The position numbers and the translations under genes were made by a program. Shown one piece after another: positions 41,522-55,840 of a DNA stretch of 55,840 bases. How positions within the stretch are numbered: position 1 is the stretch's first letter; the number at the start of each line of letters is the position of its first letter. The notes beneath the pieces were generated by a model, which was not told the origin of the DNA, made no database searches, and saw nothing but the letters and a program-made list of their open reading frames with translations. This stretch comes from Alcaligenaceae bacterium. GTDB taxonomy: Bacteria > Pseudomonadota > Gammaproteobacteria > Burkholderiales > Burkholderiaceae_B. The stretch lies in assembly GCA_947378965.1 (NCBI GenBank), contig CANCMG010000016.1, positions 1 through 55,840 of the forward strand, read 5' to 3'.

Positions 41522-42585
41522 GACGCGCTCGCTTTGGTATTGTCGTTTGCGGTTTTGATCGCCTGCAGGTTGAGAGCCCTGTCCGGTGCTTGACTGTTTT
41601 CCTTGTCGCTCACCCCTTTTAGTGGTGGATTGCTTTGCTGGTCGTTCAGCCCTGTTAGTGCTTGACTGCGTTGCTTGTCGCTCGCGCCCTCGAGTCCCTG
41701 ACGGCTCTGAGGCTCTGCTGGCAATTGCATCAGCGGGCTCCCCATCTTAATGTGCGCGCCGGGCAAGATTTGATCGGCTAAGGTGAAGCCGTTAGGGGCG
41801 AACACAATAATGGTCGAGCCGTGCTCAAACCAACCAAGCTCTTGCCCTTTTTCAAAGGCTACGTTGCACGCAAAATCGGTTTGTCCTTTGTAGCGTGTGT
41901 GAAATAAAGTATTCAAACCGTGCAAGCGAATGCTGGCCACCAAGATCGCCGCAACCGGTACAAGCGCCACCCTATGCTTTTGTGAACCTAGTTCAAGCGC
42001 CAACACGGCCCGCTCATTTTTACAAAACAGTTTTTCAACACGCTTTAAGGCGATGGGGTTCACATTCCAGGTATCCCCTGACAAATAATGCACGGCCTTC
42101 ATCGCGCCTGTATACGGGGCATGAAAGCGGTGATACATGGCAGAGGTAAGCCGTAACGTGACGTATTGGCCGTCGGTCCAGGCACTCGTGTCGGTGTGCT
42201 GGCCAAACAGATCGGTCAAGGTGTACGGAAACCCCTTCGCTTGAAACACTTGCCCATTGATGATCTTGCCGCAAGCACCCACGATGGCATCACAGGGGCT
42301 CGTCATCACTTCCGGATCCTGATCGACCACGCGAGCACCCTCGTGTAATTCGCGAATAAAGCAATCGTGAAGGCTGTCGAAATGTTGTTTTTTAGCTTCG
42401 CTTAAATCAAGATCGGTAAATAGTTTCCAGGTGCCAATCGAAGCGTCACGTACCCAGCCCACCTTGATTTTGCTGAACCAACCCATGAAATGCGTGACGG
42501 CGAGCCTCGGAATCCGGTTGGTCACTAAAAAATTGAGGTCTTCGTGGGCAAAGACATTGCGGACGGCTTTACTGATGTTCATCAT
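41518..42585 (-). CDS. Phosphatidylserine decarboxylase family enzyme with repetitive C-terminal tail
   Basis: 355 residues. Pyruvoyl-dependent decarboxylase making phosphatidylethanolamine from phosphatidylserine at the membrane. Catalytic Asp (about D99, SPCDAIVG), His (about H155, YHRFHAP) and the self-cleavage Ser (about S257, EHGSTI) are all present. The residue before Gly-Ser is His instead of the usual Leu/Phe-type residue. Residues ~290-355 form a hydrophilic repetitive tail (imperfect copies of a GVSDKxxSQA motif) not expected in the short alpha chain. Divergent from the aminotransferase gene (44 bp apart). May be the main Psd or a paralogue; a housekeeping psd elsewhere cannot be excluded. 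Confidence 0.82.
   Translation of the reverse strand: MMNISKAVRNVFAHEDLNFLVTNRIPRLAVTHFMGWFSKIKVGWVRDASIGTWKLFTDLDLSEAKKQHFDSLHDCFIRELHEGARVVDQDPEVMTSPCDAIVGACGKIINGQVFQAKGFPYTLTDLFGQHTDTSAWTDGQYVTLRLTSAMYHRFHAPYTGAMKAVHYLSGDTWNVNPIALKRVEKLFCKNERAVLALELGSQKHRVALVPVAAILVASIRLHGLNTLFHTRYKGQTDFACNVAFEKGQELGWFEHGSTIIVFAPNGFTLADQILPGAHIKMGSPLMQLPAEPQSRQGLEGASDKQRSQALTGLNDQQSNPPLKGVSDKENSQAPDRALNLQAIKTANDNTKASAS
41584..41700 (-). repeat. Imperfect repeats in the decarboxylase C-terminal tail
   Basis: Codes for about three degenerate copies of a 12-14-residue unit (EGASDKQRSQAL; TGLNDQQSNPPL; KGVSDKENSQAP). Hydrophilic, probably disordered, and located after the catalytic core. Confidence 0.65.
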
Positions 42586-42629
42586 TTCGTCACTTTAAAG
42601 TCATAAAAAGGAGTTTTCGAGGCAAAACT

Positions 42630-44294
42630 ATGACTGATCAAATTTTGAATGTTATGCAATACGTTGCTGCAGCGACCGTGGGTCTTTGGCTGCTGTTGCG
42701 CATCAAGCAACGTCTGCAATTGTCGGTGGCTAAATATCCGTCTTTGGGTGGGCACCTGCGTTGGGCTAAACGCATCACCCGCTGGGTGCCTGGCTACTCG
42801 TACTCTGACGACAAATGGTTTGATGCAGATGGGGCGCCACCAGAGGTTGTGACCCAGCGTCGTGCGGCACTTGCCTTGTTGGGCAATGATCTTCGTACTC
42901 GTAGCCCGTTGACTCTGGCGCATACCGCAGCGAGTAAACCCATGATTTCTGACTTGCAATTCATCAGCAACTATCGGGTGCCTTATCAGTTTCGTGACGT
43001 GTTGCAGCAGCACCTTCAACTTGGCAGCTTCTGGACGAGCAGCGATGGCGTCTGGCTGACCGACATGGACGGCAATCGCATGATTGATGTGACGGGCTCG
43101 TATGGCGTGAACTTGTTCGGACTGGATTTTTACAAGTCTTGCATCGAAGAGGGCAGCAAGCTGGTACGCGACTTGGGCCCAGTCTTGGGTTCGTATCATC
43201 CTTGCGTGCTCGACAATATTCGGCGTCTGTGTGCCATCTCTGGCAAGGATGAAGTTTCGTTTCACATGTCCGGTACCGAGGCAGTGATGCAAGCCGTGCG
43301 CCTGGCGCGCTATCAAACGGGTCGTCAAAAAATTGTTCGTTTTACAAGCGCCTATCATGGCTGGTGGGACGACGTGCAGCCGGGCCCGGGCAATCCGATG
43401 CCGCCCTCTAAGCACACGCTGACGTTGCGCGAAATGCATGAGAATACGTTGCGGGTACTTCGCAATCGTCGCGATATCGCGTGCGTCTTGGTTAACCCGA
43501 TACAAGCCATGCACCCCAACCAAGCGGCACCGACCGATTCGACTCTGGTCGATGGTGGGCGTCGGGCGCATTACGATCGAGTGGCGTATACCGCCTGGCT
43601 CAAAGAATTGCGTCAGGTGTGCGCCGAGCGCGGCATCATCTTTATTTTGGATGAAGTCTTTTTGGGCTTTAGGCTTGCCCCAGGCGGCGCCCAAGAATAC
43701 TTCGGGCTTGATGCTGACATGGTCACCTACGGCAAAACGCTGGGCGGCGGATTGCCGATTGGCATTTTGTGTGGCAAGAAAAATCTGATGGCACGTTTCT
43801 ATGCCGAGCACCCAGCCGATATCTGCTTTGCCCGCGGCACCTTCAATGCTCATCCCTATGTGATGGGCGCCATGAATGTGTTCTTGCATCGCCAAGAGAC
43901 GCCTGCAGTTCAAAAGCTTTATGCAGAGCTTGACACGACCTGGAGCACGCGCAAGACTCAACTGAACGACCTGCTCAAGCGCGAAGGGCTGCCATTGCGT
44001 GTCGAGGCCATGTCGACGGTGTGGACCGTGCTGTACGACGTGCCAAGCCGCTTTAACTGGTTGTTGCAGTTTTATTTGCGTCGCGAAGGCATTGCCCTGA
44101 GCTGGGTGGGTACGGGAAGACTGATTTTTAGTCTGAACTTTACAGATGCAGATTTTGATGATTTCTGTCAACGTTTCGTGCGTGCTGGCCATCAAATGGC
44201 TGCAGGTGCTTGGTGGTGGACGCCGCAAGGGCAAACAAACAAACAAATTCGACGCCGTATGTTGTTAGAGATGGTGCAGCAGACTAAGCTGTGA
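42630..44294 (+). CDS. Membrane-anchored class III PLP-dependent aminotransferase
   Basis: 554 residues. An N-terminal hydrophobic helix (about 7-23) precedes a full class III aminotransferase. PLP-binding features: SGTEAVM (214-220), Y242-H243-G244, DEVFLGFR (D341) and the Schiff-base lysine K369 in TYGKTLGGGLPIG. The fold is related to glutamate-1-semialdehyde aminomutase and omega-aminotransferases, but ~100 residues of N-terminal extension with a membrane helix are unusual. Substrate unknown; the neighbours (Psd-like enzyme, LplT, Mpo1-like protein) suggest a membrane-located aldehyde or keto-lipid. Ribosome site GAGG at 42619-42622. Confidence 0.85.
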   Translation: MTDQILNVMQYVAAATVGLWLLLRIKQRLQLSVAKYPSLGGHLRWAKRITRWVPGYSYSDDKWFDADGAPPEVVTQRRAALALLGNDLRTRSPLTLAHTAASKPMISDLQFISNYRVPYQFRDVLQQHLQLGSFWTSSDGVWLTDMDGNRMIDVTGSYGVNLFGLDFYKSCIEEGSKLVRDLGPVLGSYHPCVLDNIRRLCAISGKDEVSFHMSGTEAVMQAVRLARYQTGRQKIVRFTSAYHGWWDDVQPGPGNPMPPSKHTLTLREMHENTLRVLRNRRDIACVLVNPIQAMHPNQAAPTDSTLVDGGRRAHYDRVAYTAWLKELRQVCAERGIIFILDEVFLGFRLAPGGAQEYFGLDADMVTYGKTLGGGLPIGILCGKKNLMARFYAEHPADICFARGTFNAHPYVMGAMNVFLHRQETPAVQKLYAELDTTWSTRKTQLNDLLKREGLPLRVEAMSTVWTVLYDVPSRFNWLLQFYLRREGIALSWVGTGRLIFSLNFTDADFDDFCQRFVRAGHQMAAGAWWWTPQGQTNKQIRRRMLLEMVQQTKL

Positions 44295-44404
44295 TGGCTC
44301 GCTGCGTAGTAGTGATCAGAAACTTCTAGCATGGCAGTAAGGGTATTCAGAGGCTTCTATCTCGGTGGTGAGGGGTACTCAGAGACTTTTATCTTTTAAG
44401 AACT

Positions 44405-44583
44405 GAAGTCTCTGATTGAATCTGCTCGGTGTCACTGAAGCCTCTGGTTGAATTTCCTCGGTGTCACTTAAGTATCTGATTGAATCTTAAGTATCTGATT
44501 GAATCTACTCGGTGTGACTGAGGTTTCTGATTGCATCGGTTCAGTGAGGCCCAAGCCGCTCATTGACTCTGCTTAATGTGATT
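44405..44583. repeat. Degenerate 32-bp tandem repeat, about 5.6 copies
   Basis: Units resemble GAAGTCTCTGATTGAATCTG followed by CTCGGTGTCACT. Copies at 44405-44436, 44437-44468, a short one at 44469-44487, 44488-44519, 44520-44551, and a diverged one running into the end of the next gene. It fills most of the 278-bp gap after the aminotransferase gene, and the preceding ~100 bp contain looser versions. No gene or terminator is seen here. Confidence 0.75.
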
Positions 44584-45181
44584 GAATGTGTGGCATGGGG
44601 TCAATCAACTCACCACGCATTAAATAAATGGGTGAGCGACGGTACAGCATGACGTCATGAAACGGGTCTGTCAAAATCTTCAAAGCCCAGGCAAACGCCG
44701 CTTTGAAGTTTTCTTTGATGCATAGCTGAGCGACTCTGAATAACAAGCCAGCAACGCCCAAAAAGAGCCAAGCCATACCGACAATACGTACTGTCGTGTC
44801 TTCGTAAGCCTCTGGTACGGCCCAGGTAATGAGCGAGGGCTGCAAGTAAGCTATGACAGGGATCGCGGCCCAGATCGACAGCAACACAATCTTACGATGT
44901 AAGTTGTAGCCGACTTTGATGTCTTCTTTGTGCTCATGGGTCGCTTGATTGACGTGATCGTAGCCCTTGGGTTCAAAAAAGAAGTGGCCCGATTGGCGCG
45001 TGGTCATCGCCACTAACCAAGCAACCAACGACGCTGCGACTGGGTTAATGAAGAGCAGCACATAAGAGACTAAAAATGATAAAGCGCTGACCAAGTGCAG
45101 GCTTTGATTAATACGACTGTGATGATAATAACGATGGTCATCCCAGCGCTGTATTCTTAAGGTGTTTAGCAATTCTTTCAT
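44573..45181 (-). CDS. Mpo1/DUF962-like membrane protein
   Basis: 202 residues, four hydrophobic helices (about 27-60 as a pair, 98-115, 130-150) and conserved-looking histidines outside them (YYHHSRINQSLH; GHFFFEPKGYDHVNQATHEHK). Topology and His pattern resemble DUF962/Mpo1-type iron-dependent 2-hydroxy fatty acid dioxygenases, or a fatty-acid hydroxylase relative. This is a pattern-based call without search support. Divergent from the glycosyltransferase gene; the last unit of the 32-bp repeat overlaps its 3' end. Confidence 0.55.
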   Translation of the reverse strand: MKELLNTLRIQRWDDHRYYHHSRINQSLHLVSALSFLVSYVLLFINPVAASLVAWLVAMTTRQSGHFFFEPKGYDHVNQATHEHKEDIKVGYNLHRKIVLLSIWAAIPVIAYLQPSLITWAVPEAYEDTTVRIVGMAWLFLGVAGLLFRVAQLCIKENFKAAFAWALKILTDPFHDVMLYRRSPIYLMRGELIDPMPHIQSH

Positions 45182-45270
45182 CGTGAGCCCTTGTGTTGTC
45201 TGTGTCGCAAATCAAATGGATTGTGGGCGACGCCTCAGATGAGATTATTTCAGAAGCATTGAGTCAAAAG

Positions 45271-45288
45271 ATGAATTTTTAATGACAT
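45271..45288 (-). promoter_or_regulatory. Weak Pho-box-like site toward the Mpo1-like gene
   Basis: Minus strand ATGTCAT-TAAA-AATTCAT, two heptamers at 11-bp spacing with TCAT cores, ten of fourteen positions matching. About 90 bp upstream of the Mpo1-like start. Speculative. Confidence 0.25.
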
Positions 45289-45317
45289 TCGTGTTGCAAT
45301 TTATTTTCAGATACTCG

Positions 45318-45335
45318 TTGTCATCGAACGGTTAT
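45318..45335 (+). promoter_or_regulatory. Pho-box-like site toward the glycosyltransferase gene
   Basis: TTGTCAT-CGAA-CGGTTAT, 11 of 14 positions of the PhoB half-site pair at correct spacing, 46 bp upstream of the ATG. A TATAAA (45354-45359) is a plausible -10, though 18 bp away, further than usual. Confidence 0.35.
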
Positions 45336-45380
45336 ATGAATTGATTACAGTCATATAAACCTCAGTGATAAAGAGCTCAG

Positions 45381-46631
45381 ATGACAGAATACGCGCCCAT
45401 TCAAGTCGATCGAATTTATCCCGACAAGCCGAGCCTCAGGATAGCGTTGGTGACTGAAACCTACCCTCCTGATATCAACGGAGTGGCTCATACGGTATCA
45501 AAAATAGTAGAAGGCTTGCGTGCTCGCGGGCACGAATTGATGTTGGTCAGACCAAGGCATCACAGTGACATCGAGGCGGCCGCAGATTCGCGCTATCAAG
45601 AAGTATTGGTGCGTGGTGCACCGATTCCGATGTATAAGCAGTTGCGCATGGGCTTGCCGGCTCAGGGCGCTTTGCAAAAATTGTGGCTCAAGCAGCGGCC
45701 TGACCTCGTACATATTGCGACTGAGGGGCCTTTGGGTTGGTCGGCTTCGCGCGCGGCGCGTAAGCTCAAAATACCAACCAGTTCAGATTTTAGAACCAAC
45801 TTTCATGCCTATAGCCAGTTCTATGGATTTGGCTGGCTGAAGGGTGCAATTGTGGCCTACATGCGTAAATTTCATAATGCTACGCACTGTACGATGGTAC
45901 CGACGCAAGGCTTAATGGCAGAGCTATCAAAGATTGGTTTTGATCGCTTGATGGTTGTGCCTCGCGGTGTTGATACTGAGAACTTTTCGCCCGCTAAGCG
46001 CGACGAACCATTGCGCCATTCTTGGGGTGCGACTGCACAGACACAAGTCCTGTTATCTGTCGGACGCTTGGCTGTTGAAAAAAATCTTGACACCGTCGTG
46101 CGCTGCTTCAGATCACTGCAAGCGCGTGGTTTGCCAGTCAAGCTAGTGATTGTGGGTGATGGGCCGTTGCGTCACGCGCTCGAGCGCAGCGTCCCAGAGG
46201 CGACCTTCGCGGGCACGCGCACAGGCCAGGATTTGGCTAAACATTACGCGAGCGCAGATCTGTTTATTTTCCCGAGCTTGACTGAAACCTTTGGCAACGT
46301 GACGATTGAGGCCATGGCAAGCGGTCTGGCCGTGGTGGCGTACGACCATGCAGCAGCAGGGCAGCTCATCGAACACAAGCGCAATGGGATGGTGCTGGCA
46401 CCAAACCAAGACGCACAGCTGTTTGAGGCGGCTCGGCAAATCGTTGAAGACTCTGCCTTACGAATCCAAGTCAGACTCGCTGCACGTCAGACGGCGGTGG
46501 ATCGGGATTGGAGTTCAGTGATTGCGCGCACTGAGGGGATTTTTAGATCATTGATCGCAAATGAGGATCCTGCCGCTGTTGTGGTGTCTGCACACTCTAA
46601 GACGGCAGGTTTTCCTCAGGCGTTACGCTAA
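45381..46631 (+). CDS. Family 4 glycosyltransferase
   Basis: 416 residues, GT-B fold. N-terminal acceptor domain with PDINGVAHTVSKIVEGL and the C-terminal nucleotide-sugar domain with GRLAVEKNLDTVV, VIVGDGPLRHALE and the E-x7-E motif in ETFGNVTIEAMASGLAVVAYD. No signal peptide or membrane helix. The N-terminal PPDINGV pattern is shared with glycolipid-forming GT4 enzymes (SqdX/MgtA/PimB-like) that glycosylate diacylglycerol. A role in phosphate-free glycolipid synthesis fits the neighbours but is inference. Converges with the HAD gene, overlapping by 4 bp. Confidence 0.82.
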   Translation: MTEYAPIQVDRIYPDKPSLRIALVTETYPPDINGVAHTVSKIVEGLRARGHELMLVRPRHHSDIEAAADSRYQEVLVRGAPIPMYKQLRMGLPAQGALQKLWLKQRPDLVHIATEGPLGWSASRAARKLKIPTSSDFRTNFHAYSQFYGFGWLKGAIVAYMRKFHNATHCTMVPTQGLMAELSKIGFDRLMVVPRGVDTENFSPAKRDEPLRHSWGATAQTQVLLSVGRLAVEKNLDTVVRCFRSLQARGLPVKLVIVGDGPLRHALERSVPEATFAGTRTGQDLAKHYASADLFIFPSLTETFGNVTIEAMASGLAVVAYDHAAAGQLIEHKRNGMVLAPNQDAQLFEAARQIVEDSALRIQVRLAARQTAVDRDWSSVIARTEGIFRSLIANEDPAAVVVSAHSKTAGFPQALR

Positions 46632-47293
46632 AAACAAGTCTCTGAGTAGTCGACAAAGCTCGCTGCAACTGGGTACCGCTGCACCGAGTCATCGCCATAG
46701 CCGCTTCGATGAAACACAAACGGGATACCGCAGTTGCTTGCACAGAGCGCGTCGACGTGCGTATCACCAATCAACAGGCAGTCGCTAGCGTTGATTTGCA
46801 GCGCATTCATCGTGGTGAGCAGCGGCAACGCGTGAGGCTTGGGATGCGCGGTGGTATCACCACCAGTCACAACGGTAAAGTAGGTAGATAACCCGTGTCG
46901 TTCAAGCGCCTGCTGAGCTGAACTTTCAATTTTATTGGTGCATACGGCTAAATGATGCCCAGTTGAAAGCAGTTGGTCGAGCAACCTTAAGATGCCAGGG
47001 TACAGAAACGAATGGTCGTGCGCTTGGCGCGCGTAGTGCGTCAAGTACGCCTGTTGAATGTCCTCGGCAGCTACCGCGGGCGCCTGCACGAGTTGCATCA
47101 CCGAAGCCAGAATGTCAGGCAATGGGCCATATAAGTTCGGAATCACTTGCTCGGAGGCAAGCGCCTGAAAGCCGCAATCAAGCAACGCTTGATTGGCGGC
47201 TCGTCGAATGTCGGGCTCGGTATGCAACAGCGTGCCATCAAGATCAAAGACGATGGCCGCAGAGCTGTGAATATACTCTTTGGCTGTTTTCAT
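46628..47293 (-). CDS. HAD-superfamily phosphatase (Gph-like)
   Basis: 221 residues. Motif I FDLDGTLL (D17/D19), motif II Thr in CTNK, motif III Lys in HPKP, motif IV GDTHVDALCA; a helical cap lies between motifs I and II. Closest in form to phosphoglycolate phosphatases, but this subgroup has many substrates. ATG overlaps the PMH stop (ATGA), so it is coupled to that gene. In this operon it would release phosphate from a phosphomonoester produced by the upstream hydrolase. Last gene of the minus-strand phosphonate run. Confidence 0.85.
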   Translation of the reverse strand: MKTAKEYIHSSAAIVFDLDGTLLHTEPDIRRAANQALLDCGFQALASEQVIPNLYGPLPDILASVMQLVQAPAVAAEDIQQAYLTHYARQAHDHSFLYPGILRLLDQLLSTGHHLAVCTNKIESSAQQALERHGLSTYFTVVTGGDTTAHPKPHALPLLTTMNALQINASDCLLIGDTHVDALCASNCGIPFVFHRSGYGDDSVQRYPVAASFVDYSETCF

Positions 47294-48834
47294 AGCCTAG
47301 AGACCAAGCCAGCTGGCGATGCCGCATAGCCAGTCAAGGTACGGTCGGCATGTAACAGCTTCCAGTCAAGCATTTTTTGCGTCATCTTTAACAACTCGAG
47401 GGTATAGCTCGGATCTTGCGCAACATTGTGAAGTTGTGACGGATCTTTTGTCAGATCAAAGAATAGTGGCGGTAAAGCTGCGAAATGGACATACTTGTAC
47501 TGATCGTTTTGAATCACTGAAAGTGCGCACTGGTCCATCGACAGACTCAAAAAGTCTTCGGGCTTTGAATAGTAAATATTTCTAAAATCAAATTCATAAT
47601 GCACTTCAGTGCGCCAGTCGGCAGGCGCAATACCGGTTTGTACAAACGGTAACAGCGAGTGCCCGTCACAGGTTCTTGGTATCGGGCGCTCAAGCCAACT
47701 CAAGATCGTGGGCATCGTGTCAATGGTTTCGGTAAAGTGCCGAACAATATTGCCGCGCGTGGCATCCGCCTCAGGGTTCGGGTCGCGCACAATCATTGGG
47801 ATATGAAAGCTCTGATCGAAGTAGCCAATCTTACCTAACAGGTGGTGATCGCCCAATTGCTCGCCATGATCACTGGTGAGGATGATGAGAGTGTTGTCCC
47901 ACTGGCCAGTTTTCTTTAGGTAGTCAAAGACGCGTCCGATGTGATGATCAACCTCAGACATCAAGCCGTAGTAAGTGGCCCGCATTTGGCGAACTTCGGC
48001 ATCTTGCATGTCTGCGCCAAGCCCCTGGCCATTTTCAAAGAAGCGACGACGTTCAATGGCTTGAAGGTAGTACGCCAAGAGTGGATGCTGGGACGCTTCA
48101 AGATCTTTGCTCGAGGCGCGGATTGGCGACGGGCAGTCTTTCGGGTCGTACATCTCGTGGTAAGGCGCCGCAGCGCTAAAGGGTGGGTGAGGGCGGTAGT
48201 AGCCAAGATGCAAGAACCATGGCTTATTTTCTGTCCCTTGCAGGTATTCGAGCGCACGGTCGGTGAACCAAGTGGTATCGGATAAATGCGCAGGAACCAT
48301 ACTTGGTTTTGCCGTGGCGCCAATATCGGCTTCGGTAAGATCCTGCGGCAACCAAATGTCGTTAGGTTTTGTTGGCATGGCGAAGCCCTGTGAGGCAAGC
48401 CAGGCAAAGTAGGCCTCTTTATCCAAGCCCCAGGAACCGACCGGATGCCAGCCCTCCATATCTGCCCCTAACACTTTAAAGCGCGGGTCTTCGGCGGCTG
48501 TTTCACGGGGGTCGGGTGTCGTGGTGGTGTAGCCAACTAAGGCGGGCTGATAGCCGGCCTTACGCACTTCTTTTGCGATATTGGTGTGACGCGCATCGAG
48601 CGGAATCGTATTCTGTACCGCGCGATGAGTCATCATATAAAGACCGGTCAGCATTGACGCGCGACCCGGGCCGCAGGGTACGGCTTGCGTGTAATGCTTG
48701 GCAAAGGTCACACCTTCGCTGGCCAAGGTTTCGATGTTTGGGGTTTGAATGACTGGGTGTCCAAGATTTTTGAGCGTATCGCCACGCCACTGGTCGACCA
48801 CAATCAATAAGACATTTTTTTGTTTGGCTGTCAT
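47290..48834 (-). CDS. Phosphonate monoester hydrolase / phosphodiesterase (sulfatase superfamily)
   Basis: 514 residues. Begins KNVLLIVVDQWRGDTL with metal Asp D14. The nucleophile precursor is C54 within AVPCGPGRAS (CxPxR, for conversion to formylglycine), followed by the PMH-typical LTGLYMMTHRAVQNTIPLD, GYTTTTPDPR, FLHLGYYRPHPPF, TSDHGEQLGDHHLLGKIGY and the end block HADRTLTGY. These match phosphonate monoester hydrolases of Rhizobium and Burkholderia nearly block for block. They hydrolyse phosphonate monoesters and phosphodiesters and are promiscuous toward sulfates. No signal peptide, so the substrate must be imported. A formylglycine-generating enzyme must be encoded elsewhere. Confidence 0.92.
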   Translation of the reverse strand: MTAKQKNVLLIVVDQWRGDTLKNLGHPVIQTPNIETLASEGVTFAKHYTQAVPCGPGRASMLTGLYMMTHRAVQNTIPLDARHTNIAKEVRKAGYQPALVGYTTTTPDPRETAAEDPRFKVLGADMEGWHPVGSWGLDKEAYFAWLASQGFAMPTKPNDIWLPQDLTEADIGATAKPSMVPAHLSDTTWFTDRALEYLQGTENKPWFLHLGYYRPHPPFSAAAPYHEMYDPKDCPSPIRASSKDLEASQHPLLAYYLQAIERRRFFENGQGLGADMQDAEVRQMRATYYGLMSEVDHHIGRVFDYLKKTGQWDNTLIILTSDHGEQLGDHHLLGKIGYFDQSFHIPMIVRDPNPEADATRGNIVRHFTETIDTMPTILSWLERPIPRTCDGHSLLPFVQTGIAPADWRTEVHYEFDFRNIYYSKPEDFLSLSMDQCALSVIQNDQYKYVHFAALPPLFFDLTKDPSQLHNVAQDPSYTLELLKMTQKMLDWKLLHADRTLTGYAASPAGLVSRL

Positions 48835-48857
48835 GAGATGAATCCGTTAGAAATCGG

Positions 48858-49730
48858 TTAGCGAAGAGTTGGATCGAGTCTGTCACGCAGCCAGTCGCCG
48901 GTCAGGCTGATCGAGAAGGTCGTCAAAACAATGACACAACTCGGGGCGAGCAAAATCCACGGGGCAGTTTGTAAATATTCGCGGCCATAGCCCACCATAT
49001 TGCCTAGGCTAGTCATTGGTGGCTGTACACCTAAGCCTAAAAAAGAGAGTCCTGATTCAAGCAAAATCACTTCAGGAAAGGTAAGCGTCATGCTGACAAT
49101 CAGCGTGCTGGCGATATTGGGCAAAATATGCCGAAAGTAGACCCGCCAAGAACTGGCGCCCAGTGCATGCACCGCATTGGCGTAGCCTTGTTCATTGGCC
49201 GCGATGGTCAGGCTGCGCGTGATGCGAGCGCTGCGCTCCCAACCGTGGCAGCCCATCAAACAAATAAAGAGTACCAGCGTGTTGCCGAAGAAGGCTAACA
49301 CTGCCAAGGCGATGATCATGAAGGGGATCGAAGCCTGGAAATCAATCAAGGTAAGCACGACTTGCTCAAGCCAGCCTTTGAAGTGCGCGGCTAAAAATCC
49401 GAGTGCCAGACCAATCGCAGCTGAAAGTAAGGTGCTGGCAAAGGCGATCAGCAGACTAACCTGAACTGAGACCAAGAGTCGCGAAAGAACGTCACGCCCT
49501 AGTTCGTCAGTGCCAAGCAAATGCCGTGCGGTACCTCCAAGCCCGACAGGTGGTTGTAGTCGTGCTTTGAGGTCAAGCGCAGTGTAGGTGTAGGGTGCGA
49601 CGAGGTCTGCCAACGCCGCAATGATGAATATCCCAAGGATCCAAGCGATCGCCACCACGACAAGGGGCGGGTACTCTTGCCAAAAATAGCGACGTGAGGC
49701 ATTTGGAACAGAGGGCGCTAGAACTGCCAT
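48858..49730 (-). CDS. OppC/DppC-type ABC transporter permease
   Basis: 290 residues from ATG 49730 with six hydrophobic helices. N-terminal OppC-type domain, periplasmic motif HLLGTDELGRDVLSRLL, and permease loop AVHALGASSWRVYFRHILPNI. Second membrane subunit of the family-5 importer. Starts 61 bp after the other permease gene. An in-frame extension upstream lacks family features. The PMH gene follows 23 bp downstream. Confidence 0.92.
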   Translation of the reverse strand: MAVLAPSVPNASRRYFWQEYPPLVVVAIAWILGIFIIAALADLVAPYTYTALDLKARLQPPVGLGGTARHLLGTDELGRDVLSRLLVSVQVSLLIAFASTLLSAAIGLALGFLAAHFKGWLEQVVLTLIDFQASIPFMIIALAVLAFFGNTLVLFICLMGCHGWERSARITRSLTIAANEQGYANAVHALGASSWRVYFRHILPNIASTLIVSMTLTFPEVILLESGLSFLGLGVQPPMTSLGNMVGYGREYLQTAPWILLAPSCVIVLTTFSISLTGDWLRDRLDPTLR

Positions 49731-49791
49731 GGCGGTTAACTTTTTTAGAGTGAAGGCTGCGAGGATATAAAAGGGGCTCGATGGTGGGCGC

Positions 49792-50724
49792 TTACTGGTG
49801 TGCGTCAGAGTTCGCCCGTAAGCGCGGGTCAAACAAGCAGTAAATCGCATCAACGACTAAGTTGGTGGCGACCATACTGACTGTGATTAATAACAATGCG
49901 GCTTGAACGATAGCCAGATCACGATTGCCGACTGCAGAAACCGTGAGTCTGCCGACTCCTGGCCAAGAAAATACGCTTTCGACCACCACGGCGCCTGCGA
50001 TTAACCCACCAAACATGAGACCGGCGATCGTGACGATCGGCAGTGCGGCATTAGGCAGAGCATGGTGAATCACGACTTGCGACCAGCGCAGACCTTTTGC
50101 AGACGCAGCGCGAATATAGGGTTGCCCCAAGACCTCTAACATCGACGATCGTGTGTAACGTGCCAACACCGCAGCGCCGCCCACTGTCAAGGTTAATACT
50201 GGCAATATCGCGTGTTCAACTGTGCCAAACCCTCCGCTGGGTAACCAACCAAAACTCACCGCAAAAATTAACACTAGCAAAAGACCTAAAACGAAGCTTG
50301 GCAAGGTGTGTCCGGCAACAGAGAGACTCATGACAAGACGGTCGACCCATGAGTTTCGGTGTAACGCAGCAAAAATTCCGGCGGGTATACCAATGCATAG
50401 ATTCAAAACAAAGGCTGGCAGAGCAAGTGCGAGCGTAGCCGGAATCGACTCAAGCACCAGCCTCATTGCTGGGCTGCCATCGCGCATCGACACTCCGAAG
50501 TTACCATGCAGAATATTTAGCAAGTAACCCCAAAATTGCTGCCAAAGAGGCGCATCTAAGCCCCAGCTTTGACGAAAAGCAGCAATGGCCTCAGGTGGAG
50601 CATCGGCAGACAAAATCATCATCGCCGGGTCACCCGATAAGCGCAAGATCGTGAAGGCAAACCCCACCACCAAGAAAATAGTGAGCAACGCGCGCAAACT
50701 GCGAGACAGCATGTATCGACTCAT
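49792..50724 (-). CDS. OppB/DppB-type ABC transporter permease
   Basis: 310 residues. N-terminal helix with RSLRALLTIFLVVGFAFTILRLSGDP, then FVLGLLLVLIFAV, the loop RAASAKGLRWSQVVIHHALPNAALP and FSWPGVGRLTVSAVGNRDLAIVQ, all of the OppB class. ATG 50724 begins 2 bp after the stop of the ATPase 2 gene. Confidence 0.92.
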   Translation of the reverse strand: MSRYMLSRSLRALLTIFLVVGFAFTILRLSGDPAMMILSADAPPEAIAAFRQSWGLDAPLWQQFWGYLLNILHGNFGVSMRDGSPAMRLVLESIPATLALALPAFVLNLCIGIPAGIFAALHRNSWVDRLVMSLSVAGHTLPSFVLGLLLVLIFAVSFGWLPSGGFGTVEHAILPVLTLTVGGAAVLARYTRSSMLEVLGQPYIRAASAKGLRWSQVVIHHALPNAALPIVTIAGLMFGGLIAGAVVVESVFSWPGVGRLTVSAVGNRDLAIVQAALLLITVSMVATNLVVDAIYCLFDPRLRANSDAHQ

Positions 50725-50726
50725 GT

Positions 50727-51728
50727 CTAACTGTCCGACCCATGATGAATCATGGTGTGAAGATGGCAACTCACTGTATGCGATTCGCTAATCCGCGTTG
50801 TGATGGGGGCGCTCGTTTTGCAATGGGCTGTCGCGAGTGCACAACGAGGATGGAAACTACAACCGGTTGGGACATCAACCGGGTTTGGTGGCTCGCCCTT
50901 CAGGATAATGCGCCCAGAACTTGTCGCCGCATTCTTAGCCCCAGGAGTCGAAACCGCAGAGATCAAGGCCTGGGTATATGGGTGCGCAGGATGCGTGAGT
51001 ACCTCTTTTGCAGAGCCTTGCTCGATAATGCGACCTAAATACATGACGGCAACTTCGTCGCAGATATGACGAACCACACGCAGATCATGACTGATAAATA
51101 ACATCGTCAGATTCATCTGTTGACGCAAGTCGTCGAGCAGATTAATCACTTGTGCCTGCACTGAAACGTCAAGTGCAGAAATGGGCTCATCGCAGACCAG
51201 TAAGCTCGGCTTGAGCACGAGAGCGCGTGCTAAGACGACGCGCTGACGTTGTCCCCCCGAGAGTTCGTGTGGGTAGCGTTGAAACAAATTATCGGTCAGG
51301 CCGACAGCGCGCATCATATTTTGTGCCGCAACGACCGGTCGGATCTCACCGTGCTTGTCGTGTATCTGCAAGGGCTCAGTCACCTGTTCGACAGCCGTCA
51401 GGCGTCGGTCAAGTGCGCCGAGCGGGTCTTGATAGACCATTTGCATATGTCGGCGGGCGGCTCGCCAAGCTTGATTACGCTGAGCGGTGACTGGCTTGCC
51501 GTCAAACTCGACGGTACCGGCGGTCGCTGGAATCAGGCCAAGCACCAGTTTCGCCATCGTTGATTTGCCGCAACCAGACTCACCGACAAGCCCTAGAGTT
51601 TTACCGCGCTGTACGCTCAACGTGACGCCATCAACAGCGCGCAAGATCTTTTTTCCGGATAGCCAATCTTTTTTGGCTTCAACCGAGAAGTGGCGCTGCA
51701 AATCCTTGACGTTTAAAAGAGCTGTCAT
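50727..51728 (-). CDS. OppF/DppF-type ABC transporter ATPase
   Basis: 333 residues: Walker A GESGCGKST, Q-loop VYQDPLGALD, signature LSGGQRQRVVLARAL, Walker B LLVCDEPISALDVS, switch His ISHDLRVV, and the C-terminal cysteine cluster (CSFHPRCALATAHC) of the peptide-type ATPases. ATG overlaps the stop of ATPase 1 by ATGA. Works with ATPase 1 to drive the importer. Confidence 0.94.
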   Translation of the reverse strand: MTALLNVKDLQRHFSVEAKKDWLSGKKILRAVDGVTLSVQRGKTLGLVGESGCGKSTMAKLVLGLIPATAGTVEFDGKPVTAQRNQAWRAARRHMQMVYQDPLGALDRRLTAVEQVTEPLQIHDKHGEIRPVVAAQNMMRAVGLTDNLFQRYPHELSGGQRQRVVLARALVLKPSLLVCDEPISALDVSVQAQVINLLDDLRQQMNLTMLFISHDLRVVRHICDEVAVMYLGRIIEQGSAKEVLTHPAHPYTQALISAVSTPGAKNAATSSGRIILKGEPPNPVDVPTGCSFHPRCALATAHCKTSAPITTRISESHTVSCHLHTMIHHGSDS

Positions 51729-52711
51729 GCTGCTAATTTTCGTGTGCAAGCTAAGGTATGCCCGACTGCGATCGTTTTGAGGGTGGGGGCATTGGCGCGA
51801 CAATTCGCTTGAGCAAAATCGCAACGGGGCTCAAACCGACAGCCCTGAATGAGTTGGCCCGCCTGCGGAATACTGCCTCGTATGGTCGTCAGACGCTGAA
51901 CCTCGGTATCCAAGGCTGGCATTGCGGCTAAGAGCCCGATGCTGTAGGGGTGTTGCGCCTCGCTGAATAAGGTCTGGCTTGGGGCGCTTTCAACAATTGA
52001 GCCTGCATACATGACCAGCACTCGATCGCTAATTTCTGAGATCACGCCAAGGTCGTGCGAGATCGTCACAAGTGCCATGCCAGTGTCTCGGCGAATGTTA
52101 TCGAGCAACAGTAAAATTTGCGCTTGAACCGTCGCATCTAAGGCGGTCGTGGGCTCATCGGCAATGAGTAAATCAGGTTGTCCGGCTAAGGCCATGGCAA
52201 TCATGACGCGTTGATTCATACCGCCAGAGAGCTCGTGTGGATAGGCACCCATACGTCGTTTGGCATCTGGGATTTCGACGTGATCCAGTAACGCAAGCAC
52301 CTCTGCGTTGGCCTCAGCGCCACGCAAACCTCGATGTAGGATTAAGCTTTCTGCAATTTGTGCGCCAATGCGCTGGGCTGGATTGAGCGATGAGCTTGGG
52401 TCTTGAAAAATCATCGCGATCTTCCGGCCGCGGATCCGAGACAACTGTGTATCCGACAAACCCAGGAGCTCGGCCCCTTGAAATTTGACCGAACCTGTGA
52501 TGCGCGCGTGCTTACCCAGTAAACCAAGCACGCCCAACCAGGTAATGCTCTTGCCACAGCCGGATTCACCGACCAAACCAATCGACTCGCCAGCTGCAAT
52601 ATGCAGGTCGACGCCATGCAACACTTCAGACGTGTGCCCGCGTTGGTCGAACCCGATCCGCAGTTCGCTGATATTCAGCAGTGCGGGCGTATCCGATGCA
52701 GTCGAGGTCAT
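51725..52711 (-). CDS. OppD/DppD-type ABC transporter ATPase
   Basis: 328 residues: Walker A GESGCGKSI, Q-loop IFQDPSSSLNP, signature LSGGMNQRVMIAMAL, Walker B LLIADEPTTALDAT, switch His ISHDLGVI, and a C-terminal Cys pattern (GCRFEPRCDFAQANC). The last Walker A residue is Ile in place of Thr/Ser, as in many OppD proteins. ATG overlaps the binding-protein stop (ATGA). Confidence 0.94.
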   Translation of the reverse strand: MTSTASDTPALLNISELRIGFDQRGHTSEVLHGVDLHIAAGESIGLVGESGCGKSITWLGVLGLLGKHARITGSVKFQGAELLGLSDTQLSRIRGRKIAMIFQDPSSSLNPAQRIGAQIAESLILHRGLRGAEANAEVLALLDHVEIPDAKRRMGAYPHELSGGMNQRVMIAMALAGQPDLLIADEPTTALDATVQAQILLLLDNIRRDTGMALVTISHDLGVISEISDRVLVMYAGSIVESAPSQTLFSEAQHPYSIGLLAAMPALDTEVQRLTTIRGSIPQAGQLIQGCRFEPRCDFAQANCRANAPTLKTIAVGHTLACTRKLAA

Positions 52712-54378
52712 TGGTTTGGAGGTGTGAGGTTCGTGACGCGAAAATCCATGACGAAAGTTTTAGAGGGCTTCCAGACAAAGTCTTTACGCTTGGCATAAAA
52801 CACTGCGCTCTGATGCAAAACCGTGTAGGCGGGGTCTTCGCGCTCAGCAATCTCTAGCATTCGTTTAAAAGTTTGCTGCCGTTCTGCTAGGTCGACTGAA
52901 GTTTCAAGTGTGTCAGACAATTTATTGAACTCAACGTTTGTCCATTCACCGGTTTGTTGTTGCTGACCATTGGGCCCGTGTTGGTTGACCAGTGAGCTCA
53001 CCGGATCACTAAAGGGCGCTGAATTCGACCAGCCTCGAACGCCGCGAGTCGGGCCTTTCTCGAAAATTTGTGCCCAATTTTCTTTCATGGACATCTGTAC
53101 GTTCAGACCGGCAGAACGCCACATCTCGAGCATGATTTGGTCGGTTTGTGTTTGATTGGTGTAGTAATTGTTTAAGCCTCTGAAGTGAATCACCTCGCCT
53201 TTATAGCCAGCTTCAGCCAAAAGCTTTTTGGCGAGCGCAACGTCATACTTCGGCACAGTCCAGCCTTTCACGAACATGTCGCCATAGAATTCGAATTGCA
53301 AACCCGCAGGTACGCGGGTATTGCCACCCCAAATTGCCTCGACGATAGCGTCGCGATCAATGGCATGTGTCATGGCTTGACGTACTTTCGGATTGGCAAG
53401 CACGGGGTGGTTTTTGTCGAAAGTGATCAAGCGGTGATTGAGAACCGGGCCGCCAACCACCTCGAACTTGGCGTTACCTTGAATCGTTTTGAACTGGTCT
53501 GGTGGAATGTCAGTAATAAAGTCATACTGGCCAGATAACAAGCCGTTGATACGCGAAGATACCTCAGGCACCACCATATAGCGAATTTCTTTAACCAGTG
53601 GTTTGCCGCCAAAGTAGTCGTCGTGCGCAGTCAAGACCAGATACTGATCCATTTTCATTTCTTTGACTTTGAAGGGCCCCGCGCTCACCGGTGCCTGAGC
53701 CCAACTCGCCCAGTCTTTCGAAGCCATATAAGCTTTCTTTGAAACAATCTCAGAGCCCAAACGCGCAATGCGCCCCTCTAGGGTAAGGTCTGGTACGGCG
53801 TTGATCAGGCGTACGGTGTAGCGATCAACGATCTCAACGCTTTGCAATGACGGCCATAAATTACGTGCGATCGCAGTAATCTCAGGCGGGGGCAACTCCA
53901 TGCTGCCGGGCGTAGAATTTGTGGTCTTGCGCCCGATATCTACCGCAATCGTTTTGCTGTCCTGGTTGGGTTGACGGGGTGCAGAGGTTCCGAACATTCT
54001 CTCAGCACTAAAACTAAACGCAACATCTTCAGCGGTCACCTCATCGCCGTTGTGAAACTTAACACCAGGGCGCAACTTGAATTCAACCGTCTTCGCGTCA
54101 ATGCGCTTCCACGAGTCAGCAAGTGAGGGCTGCGGCGAAAGGTCTCCAACTGTATCAAGCTGGATCAGACCAGCATAAATCATGGGCAACATGCGCGTGC
54201 CGACGTTGCTTTGCTCGCGCAAGGGATCCAGAGCACCACTGGTCAGTAACTGTTGTACGGCCACGCGCACGACTGGACGGGTATCTGCGGGTTGTGCAAA
54301 GACGCTAGGGTGCGCCAGAGCACACAGCGCGAGTGTAGTGAGTTTCAGAAACCAACGTTTGGAGTGAAGCAGCTGCAT
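52708..54378 (-). CDS. Family 5 (peptide/opine-type) extracellular substrate-binding protein
   Basis: 556 residues. Signal peptide to about residue 28 (cleavage near VFA). Family-5 lobes with MIYAGLIQLD, LRPGVKFHNGDEVTAEDVAFSFSAERMFG, SAGPFKVKEM and VRQAMTHAIDRDAIVEAIWGG. Proteins of this family bind peptides, nickel complexes, and also sugar-phosphodiester opines (AccA of Agrobacterium binds agrocinopine). Here the flanking PMH, PhnZ-like and PhnDE genes make a phosphonate ester or phosphodiester ligand more likely than a plain peptide. The ligand cannot be read from sequence. Confidence 0.88.
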   Translation of the reverse strand: MQLLHSKRWFLKLTTLALCALAHPSVFAQPADTRPVVRVAVQQLLTSGALDPLREQSNVGTRMLPMIYAGLIQLDTVGDLSPQPSLADSWKRIDAKTVEFKLRPGVKFHNGDEVTAEDVAFSFSAERMFGTSAPRQPNQDSKTIAVDIGRKTTNSTPGSMELPPPEITAIARNLWPSLQSVEIVDRYTVRLINAVPDLTLEGRIARLGSEIVSKKAYMASKDWASWAQAPVSAGPFKVKEMKMDQYLVLTAHDDYFGGKPLVKEIRYMVVPEVSSRINGLLSGQYDFITDIPPDQFKTIQGNAKFEVVGGPVLNHRLITFDKNHPVLANPKVRQAMTHAIDRDAIVEAIWGGNTRVPAGLQFEFYGDMFVKGWTVPKYDVALAKKLLAEAGYKGEVIHFRGLNNYYTNQTQTDQIMLEMWRSAGLNVQMSMKENWAQIFEKGPTRGVRGWSNSAPFSDPVSSLVNQHGPNGQQQQTGEWTNVEFNKLSDTLETSVDLAERQQTFKRMLEIAEREDPAYTVLHQSAVFYAKRKDFVWKPSKTFVMDFRVTNLTPPNQ

Positions 54379-54419
54379 GTGAGTCCTGTTTGAGTGCTGG
54401 ATGAAAGAGCGACGCGATA

Positions 54420-54974
54420 TTAAAGAGCGACGCTATGCATAATTTTCAAAAAGTGGGGTAAGGTTGGCGTGATGGCTGCAGGCACTTTCGCTAAATCGTC
54501 ATAGCGACGCAGACGTACTGCTTCTTGAGCAAACGATTGCGCCTCAAACTCTACCGCTTGAGGGGGGCTGTACACGCCACCTTGCACAATGAGGCTGTGT
54601 TTAGAGGCGGTTGAAAGCGTGCTCCAGTAAGACTGGTCTGTCGCGCACAGGTAGCGCTTAGCATCGACATGTAAGCGAATTGGCTCGAGCACTGCACCTG
54701 AGAATAAGCCGCGCAAAAACGGCAAAGCAACATATTGATGCAGGTCATCGCCGCTTTCTGTGCTGGCGCTTTGCTGAACTCTTCCGGTCTTGGCTAACAA
54801 ATGCCCGATATCGTGCAACAGTGCTGCGGTGATTGTGTGAGCGGTCTCCTCTGCTTGCTCGGCTAAGGCCGCACACTGAAGTGCGTGTTCAAGCTGGCTG
54901 ACTGCTTCGCCACCATACTGGTTCTCTCCCTCAACGGTTAGCAGTTGAGTGATGTCATCTAAAGTCAAAGCCAT
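54420..54974 (-). CDS. PhnZ/TmpB-type HD-domain phosphonate oxygenase
   Basis: 184 residues. HD-domain mixed-valent di-iron oxygenase that cleaves the C-P bond of 1-hydroxylated phosphonates. The pattern of PhnZ is visible with a shift of about 4: Y20 and E23 (PhnZ gating Y24/E27), H30, H54-D55, H58, H79, H102, K106 (PhnZ substrate lysine K108), S/Q in SLIVQGG, and a final Asp in RRYDD. It requires a 2-oxoglutarate hydroxylase partner (PhnY or TmpA), which is not in this window. It starts 12 bp after phnE. TmpB-like activity on a trimethylated aminophosphonate is the alternative. Confidence 0.88.
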   Translation of the reverse strand: MALTLDDITQLLTVEGENQYGGEAVSQLEHALQCAALAEQAEETAHTITAALLHDIGHLLAKTGRVQQSASTESGDDLHQYVALPFLRGLFSGAVLEPIRLHVDAKRYLCATDQSYWSTLSTASKHSLIVQGGVYSPPQAVEFEAQSFAQEAVRLRRYDDLAKVPAAITPTLPHFLKIMHSVAL

Positions 54975-54986
54975 GTCAAACCTTAT

Positions 54987-55787
54987 TTAAACAAGTGCCC
55001 GGCGAATGCGCGCAGACAGTAAATCGATACAGGTCACCGTACCAATAATAATTAGCATGACTGCGCAGGTCTCTGCGTACTGAAAACCACGAATGATCTC
55101 CCACAACACCACGCCGATACCACCCGCTCCGACCATGCCCACAACAGTCGCTGAGCGAACGTTTGACTCAAAGCGGTACAGGGCAAAGGAAATCCAAAGC
55201 GGCATCACCTGAGGAATCACGCCATACAAGATCTCGTGCAAGGCTGAGGCACCGGTCGAGCGAATTCCCTCAACCGGCTGTGGGTCAATGGATTCAACGG
55301 CTTCAGAAAATAGTTTGGCTAAGATCCCAGTGGTGTGAATCCACAATGCCAAGACGCCGGCGAAGGGGCCTAGCCCAACTGCCACGACAAATAGCATGGC
55401 AAACACCATCTCGTTGATGGCGCGACAAGCGTCCATGACTCGACGAATAGGTTGATAAACCCAGGGCGGTACGAGATTGGCCGAACCTAAAAGGGCCATC
55501 GGGATTGCCGTGATGACGGCAAGCGCAGTGCCCCAAAGTGCAATCTGCAGGGTCACCACCATTTCTTCAACAAAGAGGCGCCACTGCGAAAAATTAGGTG
55601 GAAAAAAGTCAGCGGCGTAGGTTGCCATATTGCCGGAGTCTTTAATCAGGTCTAGCGGGCGCATATCTGCTCCCTGCCAAGAGCCTGTCAACGCAAGTAC
55701 CAGCGCTGCCCAAGACCCATACCAAAGAAGACTATGCTTGCTTGGAGGGGGGGCGGACAGCGCAGAGCCAGAGGTCGTAGCGTTCAT
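54987..55787 (-). CDS. phnE: Phosphonate ABC transporter permease PhnE
   Basis: 266 residues with a basic N-terminus and about six helices. The PhnE signature is clear: [34 protein letters not shown], with the loop [17 protein letters not shown] and [21 protein letters not shown]. Moves phosphonates delivered by PhnD, energised by PhnC. phnD lies 4 bp upstream. Confidence 0.94.
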
Positions 55788-55791
55788 GAGA

Positions 55792-55840
55792 TTACTTTTT
55801 CAGAGCGGCAAGTTTGTTATCAAGCTCAGCGAGTTTGGCC
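55792..55840 (-). CDS. phnD: C-terminal end of an upstream gene, probably phnD (partial)
   Basis: Only 15 codons and a stop lie inside the window (ending [15 protein letters not shown]). The position directly upstream of phnE and the Lys/Leu-rich helical end fit the periplasmic phosphonate-binding protein PhnD. Most of the gene lies beyond the edge, so identity rests on context. Confidence 0.6.

Follow-up and report, generated by a model that had tools for sequence, protein, structure and literature searches.

The window, a stretch of 55,840 nucleotides that makes up contig C16 (CANCMG010000016.1) of an Alcaligenaceae draft genome (GCA_947378965.1), ends at position 55840 in a run of minus-strand genes. 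With a probability of roughly 0.6, we read these genes as belonging to an operon for scavenging organophosphorus compounds: an ester module would be fused behind a carbon-phosphorus (C-P) lyase-PhnCDE-HD operon. The module comprises a family-5 periplasmic binding protein (SBP5), the importer subunits OppD, OppF, OppB and OppC (OppDFBC), the hydrolase PehA and a HAD-type phosphatase; HD is an HD-domain oxygenase. This reading rests on sequence comparison. An earlier sequence-only reading of the window had counted ten genes with overlaps or short gaps, which agrees with the present layout of nine complete genes plus the 3′ end of phnD, cut by the contig end, whose neighbours overlap or are separated by gaps of up to ~60 bp:

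46628-47293, minus strand: HAD-type phosphatase, the last gene of the module
47290-48834, minus strand: PehA, a phosphonate monoester hydrolase (PMH) of the formylglycine-type alkaline phosphatase superfamily
48858-49853 (open reading frame; probable ATG start at 49730, giving 48858-49730), minus strand: OppC-like permease of the family-5 importer (BPD_transp_1 of Pfam, 97.1 bits)
49792-50769 (open reading frame; probable ATG start at 50724, giving 49792-50724), minus strand: OppB-like permease of the family-5 importer (BPD_transp_1 of Pfam, 157 bits)
50727-51824 (open reading frame; probable ATG start at 51728, giving 50727-51728), minus strand: OppF-like ATPase of the family-5 importer (ABC_tran and oligo_HPY)
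51725-52711, minus strand: OppD-like ATPase of the family-5 importer (ABC_tran and oligo_HPY)
52708-54378, minus strand: SBP5, the family-5 binding protein with an AccA-like phosphoryl site (SBP_bac_5 of Pfam, 244.9 bits)
54420-54974, minus strand: Phn-HD, a PhnZ/TmpB-type HD-domain diiron oxygenase (TIGR03276)
54987-55787, minus strand: PhnE, phosphonate ABC permease (TIGR01097, 299 bits; cut-off 216.7)
55792-55840, minus strand: 3′ end of phnD in the final 49 bases of the window, the gene running on into contig C179

The last 149 bases of contig C179 (4.1 kb), which carries phnL-phnM-phnC-phnD and with them the only PhnD match of the genome, are identical to the window's end, and the first bases of C179 share an exact end overlap of 149 bp with contig C149 (7.1 kb), which carries phnG-H-I-J-K. 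The window's minus-strand genes are therefore the downstream end of an operon for C-P lyase, and the joined order is phnG-H-I-J-K (C149), phnL-M-C-D (C179) and phnE-HD-SBP5-OppD-OppF-OppB-OppC-PehA-HAD (C16). These joins are end overlaps within a draft assembly, and the inferred order is supported by relatives in which overlapping parts of it are found on a single contig: locus L031 runs from phnM-C-D-E-HD to HAD, and L141 from phnH-I-J-K-L-M-HD to HAD. The contig overlaps and the single-contig relatives would fit one transcription unit with the C-P lyase genes, yet a Pho-box-like site lies between phnM and phnC or HD, so that two transcription units are possible. The sequence-only reading had pointed upstream for phnC and a hydroxylase; phnC was indeed found there, on C179, while no PhnY-type gene was found in the operon.

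PhnG, PhnH, PhnK, PhnL and PhnM pass their NCBIfam cut-offs and PhnI and PhnJ those of Pfam, and the joined contigs hold a complete phnGHIJKLM and phnCDE set. With this full set in the operon, the C-P bond would most simply be cut by C-P lyase. A genome search gave no PhnP match at E <= 0.001; PhnN lies on another contig (188.6 bits; cut-off 156). Divergent from phnG is a DUF1045 gene (Pfam, 158.8 bits; TIGR03223, 241.5 bits, under the cut-off of 248.95), whose product could replace PhnP, judging from 2H-type motifs.

PehA passes the curated equivalog model NF045661 (921.4 bits; cut-off 900). Its nearest solved structures are the PMHs of Rhizobium leguminosarum (RlPMH, 2vqr, 704 bits) and Burkholderia caryophylli (BcPMH, 2w8s, 685 bits), which belong to the same family and have the same CGPxR motif, and it is 59% identical to PehA of R. 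johnstonii. The nucleophile motif C-x-P-x-R is present as C54-G-P-G-R58, and D14, R58, N75, H216, D322, H323 and K335 are invariant across the three PehA proteins aligned; D14, N75, H216, D322, H323 and K335, together with the Cys54 motif, are what we take to be the metal and active-site residues. From the characterised homologues we infer that PehA would cut phosphonate monoesters and/or phosphodiesters. The sequence-only reading had identified PhnE, the HD oxygenase and PMH by motifs, and all three indeed pass curated family cut-offs. No signal peptide was seen at the N-terminus of PehA when inspected by eye, and that of SBP5, judged in the same way, reads as a signal peptide. The proposal made there of a cytoplasmic PMH served by the family-5 importer is supported, the importer having the look of one for phospho(n)ate esters. 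The HAD protein (HAD_2 of Pfam, 123.6 bits; TIGR01449, 147 bits, under the cut-off of 180) is related to phosphoglycolate phosphatase. Of the 28 beta-proteobacterial loci, 19 have a HAD gene directly behind PehA, and 10 of the 19 lie outside the window's clade. HAD, SBP5 and the Opp proteins pass Pfam cut-offs, and none of them reaches an equivalog cut-off among the models listed, the best 25 for the longest lists. An in-frame TGA was apparent in PehA of three genomes, and on inspection no stop lies inside the aligned part.

The closest solved structure to SBP5 is AccA (8c6u, 286.5 bits), the binding protein of the Agrobacterium agrocinopine system. According to one report on AccA, the ligand phosphate is gripped via Asn54, Ser419, Tyr375 and Tyr376, and OH1 of the sugar is anchored by Asn54, Glu510, Asn284 and Ser419 (PMC4526662); the same text names Glu504, a mismatch with our alignment, in which AccA has Trp at that position. 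The four phosphate contacts and the hinge residue Asn284 are all kept in SBP5 of the window. Indeed, all five are found in 20 of 20 readable PehA-linked binding proteins, the window's included, in an alignment with two further, unreadable rows and several rows of close kin, and also in three of three second binding proteins. Among eight control family-5 binding proteins picked for low identity, none has the full set, with single positions agreeing in some. Because the phosphate contacts of AccA are kept, SBP5 probably binds an ester and not a peptide, and binding of peptides only, which the sequence-only reading had named as the outcome that would speak against it, becomes unlikely. Against curated models of peptide, nickel and opine binders, SBP5 did not reach a cut-off, the best of the 11 models listed being NF045468 (141.8 bits vs 600).

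HD passes the Phn-HD model TIGR03276 (223.4 bits; cut-off 214.6) and scores 97.6 bits against TmpB (6npa) and 80.9 bits against PhnZ (4mlm) among solved structures; the alignment matches the positions that we take to be the diiron ligands and substrate contacts of PhnZ. Fifty PehA-carrying genomes, those of the 28 beta-proteobacterial loci and 22 hand-picked from the other 52, thus not a random sample, were searched for HD and phnJ. A Phn-HD match is present in 42, in 39 of these over 190 bits, and phnJ in 41, two of these being fragments. Thirty HD loci were taken from these genomes, each reaching only ~1.5 kb to either side; PhnM, PhnL, PhnE, PhnD or PhnC lies within that distance in 20, nine of which belong to the window's clade, so that C-P lyase or PhnCDE neighbours are found in 11 of 21 outside it. 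The other 10 are L130 with PehA, L123/L142 in a phosphonatase operon, and eight with nothing named nearby. In sister genomes (L143 with G013, L119 with G014), HD closes the phn cluster and the PehA module is elsewhere; HD therefore probably joined the PehA module together with C-P lyase.

The same gene set recurs in other genomes. A contig search with three PehA proteins gave 80 loci, the best of 285 confirmed (neighbouring reading frames in G+C-rich loci were chosen with a GC3 filter, counts were made by tblastn with named proteins, and reading-frame starts are rough). Nine loci carry a PehA that shares 93% identity or more with that of the window, and in all six that reach far enough upstream HD stands beside SBP5, OppDFBC, PehA and HAD, with phnM in five and phnE in the sixth. 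The remaining three clade contigs end early; in their genomes, HD adjoins the binding-protein gene on another contig (L108, L117, L122). Three of the six loci, L028, L030 and L035, have no phnCDE in the stretch from phnM to HD. The sequence-only reading had suggested a search for the set elsewhere and took its never recurring together as speaking against the proposal; the set does recur, and the clade supplies nine other genomes, six of them with PehA and HD on one contig. Relatives at 66-80% PehA identity have SBP5-OppDFBC-PehA, with or without HAD, and lack an adjoining C-P lyase. SBP-OppDFBC-PehA(-HAD) is a conserved module, and a single clade of beta-proteobacteria has it fused behind C-P lyase-HD. 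The isolate names of the matched loci lead us to guess at a fresh-water habitat.

Recurrence extends beyond the clade, with other arrangements. In L104/L137, from a Rhodospirillales metagenome-assembled genome, PehA-SBP5-OppDFBC-second binding protein-alkaline phosphatase (AP)-type phosphodiesterase-HD-PhnD-PhnC-PhnE are encoded on one strand, and phnG-H-I-J-K-L-M and DUF1045 then follow on the same strand, with one opposite-strand PhnM-like gene in between. The stretch between OppC and HD there (L104:7992-10996) encodes the second family-5 binding protein, with AccA contacts, and the AP-superfamily phosphodiesterase (PF01663), which has no NCBIfam match at 1e-8; the opposite-strand gene inside the phn cluster (L137:8099-9253) encodes a PhnM-like amidohydrolase that is the second of its kind there and divergent (451.8 bits, subfamily NF011987). 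The genes are near by in L085/L138, where HD-phnCDE and C-P lyase genes are followed by UgpA/E/B-like genes, a phosphoesterase, PehA, SBP5 and OppDFBC, the distance from HD to PehA being ~19 kb. HD of L139 is divergent from a 51% PehA paralogue and has a different family-5 importer behind it. A LysR-type regulator lies between HD and the paralogue, with the aminoethylphosphonate-associated phn_lysR model as its best match (220 bits; cut-off 341). This locus (L139:3678-12034, contig C56 of genome G015) shows no C-P lyase within the 20 kb that were read, G015 gave no phnJ match, and the binding protein of the locus is without the phosphate contacts of AccA.

Two further arrangements were seen. 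In a sister genome, L142:8579-18138 (contig C1 of G011) has phnCDE, an alcohol dehydrogenase, a TIGR03364 oxidase, the phosphonatase PhnX and HD in place of C-P lyase and PehA; with Agt, PlcP and GT4 genes around, it looks like the same chromosomal place in which phosphonate cassettes were swapped. L156-L158 (G292, G062, G351) apparently have PhnD-like and PhnE-like genes, two of each, immediately ahead of a PehA with 46-47% identity, and a family-5 importer was not found in the 19-20 kb read; the PMH may be fed by PhnCDE in these loci.

The association of PehA with phosphonate genes was also counted in an unselected sample of 399 Burkholderiales genomes, of which 11, five of them from one genus, have a PehA-type match at E <= 1e-120, and 42 have phnJ over the cut-off (43 at E <= 0.001). 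phnJ over the cut-off is found in 7 of the 11 PehA genomes vs 35 of 388 others (Fisher p = 2e-5). By genus, it is found in 5 of 6 PehA genera vs 22 of 153 (p = 5e-4), with phnJ and PehA in different genomes in two of the five. Eight of the 11 carriers, including the window genome, have a PehA-type gene in the physical neighbourhood of phosphonate genes. For example, phnC-D-E-E-PehA faces phnM-L-K-J-I-H-G in G062, G292 and G351, PehA is in the same cluster with other gene order in G154 and G322, and G219 has SBP-OppBCDF-PehA-PhnD-C-E-E. G290 has a second, 51% PehA copy linked to HD, its 74% copy being unlinked. PehA is not near phosphonate genes in G375, G055 and G260.

Mapped onto a PehA tree, linkage requires 8 changes of state, of which 7 or more fall on well-supported branches; shuffled labels require 15.7 on average. 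The tree covers 59 of 95 rows (94 loci and the window), since a locus that reached less than 6 kb to one side was kept only if scored as linked, and L161 was added by hand. The count falls to 7 if L039 is taken as unlinked and to 6 if L161 is as well, both doubtful rows then being set aside. With 6-8 label changes, linkage to phn genes arose or was lost several times.

In the phnM-phnC or phnM-HD gap, a conserved Pho-box-like island with CTGTMA-N5-TTGTCAT is shared by all six aligned clade members, irrespective of the gene behind it. Such sites exceed expectation ahead of PehA modules: 8 of 22 upstream regions contain one that is equalled in no more than 5% of same-locus windows (combined p = 5e-6, suggestive only, as the loci are related and the windows overlap). 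The operon is probably Pho-regulated, as these putative sites suggest. Upstream of phnG, contig C149 (L014) carries three further genes:

4190-4945 of L014, plus strand: DUF1045 gene
5041-5856 of L014, plus strand: PlcP-like metallophosphoesterase
5939-7090 of L014, minus strand: Agt-like glycosyltransferase

The two genes behind DUF1045 resemble what we take to be the PlcP/Agt lipid-remodelling pair, and each is preceded by a Pho-box-like site with one mismatch; the Agt-like gene has no Pfam match at 1e-5. Within the window, the genes at 40220-46631, which flank the operon, encode an LplT-looking major facilitator superfamily protein, a phosphatidylserine decarboxylase, a class-III aminotransferase, a GT4 glycosyltransferase and a small protein with no Pfam match, and a Pho-box-like sequence with 3 mismatches before the GT4 gene recurs in clade members.

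The operon could work as follows. The binding protein would capture a phosphodiester or a phosphonate monoester via its AccA-like phosphoryl site, as the conserved residues suggest, and OppDFBC, by its family, would import the captured ester, which PehA would open in the cytoplasm, going by its characterised homologues. A phosphonate product would be passed to the C-P lyase complex, which would free phosphate, and HD would be an accessory of this branch, perhaps for alpha-hydroxyphosphonates; from a phosphate-monoester product, phosphate would presumably be freed by HAD. The Pho-box-like site that separates phnM from the genes downstream may allow joint induction under phosphate limitation. 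To our knowledge, the native substrate of PMHs is unsettled. A more specific proposal, which we put forward tentatively and at less than even odds, is that the PMH-importer module and the PMHs of phn clusters natively serve the uptake of whole natural-phosphonate esters, the phosphonate being freed inside for C-P lyase; ligands could be, for example, glyceryl-2-aminoethylphosphonate from protist phosphonolipids or sugar esters of methylphosphonate.

Several observations weigh against the preferred reading. Among the 47 long loci, which extend 8 kb or more to each side, only 7 are scored as linked to phn genes, and 24 have a family-5 importer near PehA; linkage was set by arbitrary identity cut-offs, and the count includes L039 as a doubtful linked case (a PhnE-like permease 9 kb off) and misses L161, which has phnDCEE. 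Reyranella-type PehA loci are without phn genes and without a family-5 importer, and on the PehA tree the window's clade contributes a single fusion event. Right before phnG no convincing Pho box was found (5 mismatches, equalled in 73 of 200 shuffles). In SBP5, furthermore, Glu510, Tyr145, Trp178 and the gate residue Trp423 of AccA are Phe, Leu, Leu and Pro; with these sugar-side residues changed, SBP5 is not filed as an agrocinopine binder, and its predicted ligand is a phosphoryl or phosphonyl ester whose alcohol part differs from that of AccA's. Some PehA modules adjoin Ugp-like and phosphoesterase genes, and HAD stands behind PehA in loci without phn genes, both of which fit plain phosphodiesters; by the latter, phosphodiesters also fit as substrates. 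The module may thus scavenge ordinary phosphodiesters only, for instance glycerophosphodiesters as deacylated phospholipids, with PehA as a phosphodiesterase, HAD freeing phosphate, and C-P lyase adjacent through phosphate-starvation clustering. This is possible, though we hold it rather doubtful. It would be in line with PehA beside UgpA/E/B-like and metallophosphoesterase genes in L057 and L085 (none of which reaches the curated Ugp or SpdA cut-off), with a similar phosphoesterase adjoining PehA modules in L037/L039, with the 10 HAD-bearing loci outside the phn-linked clade, with the surrounding lipid genes (PlcP-like and Agt-like with their Pho-box-like sites, phosphatidylserine decarboxylase), and with a title cited in PMC5649143, by which RlPMH is named a phosphodiesterase too. 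However, it leaves unexplained the PMHs of different branches inside phn clusters (G062, G292, G351; G219), the HD of L139 beside a PehA paralogue with its phn_lysR-like regulator, and the enrichment of phnJ in PehA genomes.

Two other explanations concern the chemistry around the C-P bond. The sequence-only reading had C-P cleavage of the phosphonate released by PehA carried out by a PhnY-type hydroxylase and the HD enzyme, for which the PhnZ/TmpB-type active-site residues of HD and eight PhyH matches elsewhere in the genome could be cited. However, none of the eight is on C16, C179 or C149 (TauD-type hydroxylases such as TmpA were not part of this search), and the four that hit the methylphosphonate-hydroxylase model do so at 28.8-47.7 bits vs a cut-off of 500, with ectoine hydroxylase giving each of the four a better score. 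Further PhnY-type models were not matched. Of the frames scored, that of L023 (742 aa) includes additional domains and that of L024 is only a fragment of 161 aa; neither of the two matched a hydroxylase model. As the operon also has the full C-P lyase set, and HD adjoins phnM or phnE in relatives, this route is improbable and was abandoned. Still less credible, in our estimate, is that PehA and HAD stand in for PhnP and PhnN and open the ribosyl cyclic phosphate that PhnJ produces, with the importer incidental: the genome is without a PhnP match and PehA is a phosphodiesterase-type enzyme near the operon's end, but PhnN is present on its other contig, the DUF1045 protein could fill the role of PhnP, and PehA goes with the family-5 importer more often than with phn genes in the long loci.

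Parts of this arrangement are known. In R. johnstonii pRL9, pehA is also followed by genes for a binding protein, two ABC ATPases and two permeases, but no annotated phn gene lies within 12 kb of it, whereas PehA of the window is in line with C-P lyase. The agrocinopine system (AccA, AccF) likewise imports a phosphodiester that is then cleaved in the cytoplasm, by a family-5 binder with the shared phosphate contacts and hinge Asn284; its hydrolase, however, is AccF instead of PehA, and the window differs in being without the sugar-side residues and in its link to C-P lyase. Like known C-P lyase operons, the window genome has phnGHIJKLM and phnCDE with a divergent DUF1045, but phnP was not found, phnN is elsewhere, and the operon is extended by HD, SBP5-OppDFBC, PehA and HAD. 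PhnHD of Achromobacter is reported to adjoin phosphonatase operons (PMC11203657). Compared with the PhnZ, TmpB and PhnHD oxygenases, HD of the window is a TIGR03276 member, but stands in a C-P lyase operon in which no hydroxylase partner was found. The available text of PMC5649143 proposes, from genome co-occurrence in Sulfitobacter, that such an enzyme frees phosphonates from esters ahead of C-P lyase; the enzyme there is 31-34% similar to RlPMH and BcPMH, and no operon or importer figures in that text. The suggestion that the system is undescribed holds in part: in the open-licence literature, no operon of PMH, family-5 importer and C-P lyase was found by title or abstract start, while PMH action before C-P lyase had already been proposed (PMC5649143, in the text available). 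The parts are known families, and the association itself is real and recurrent, its proposed mechanism is plausible, and the importer is better defined than in the sequence-only reading.

Marine dissolved organic matter contains phosphonates as polysaccharide esters, and the opening of the ester before C-P lyase was left as a postulate (PMC5649143). If uptake of natural-phosphonate esters is true, the operon would represent a complete ester-to-phosphate route, releasing methane from methylphosphonate, with a dedicated AccA-like phosphonate-ester binding protein. The combination of an AccA-like ester importer, PMH and C-P lyase would thereby offer named genes for testing the entry of esterified phosphonates and its link to methane release.

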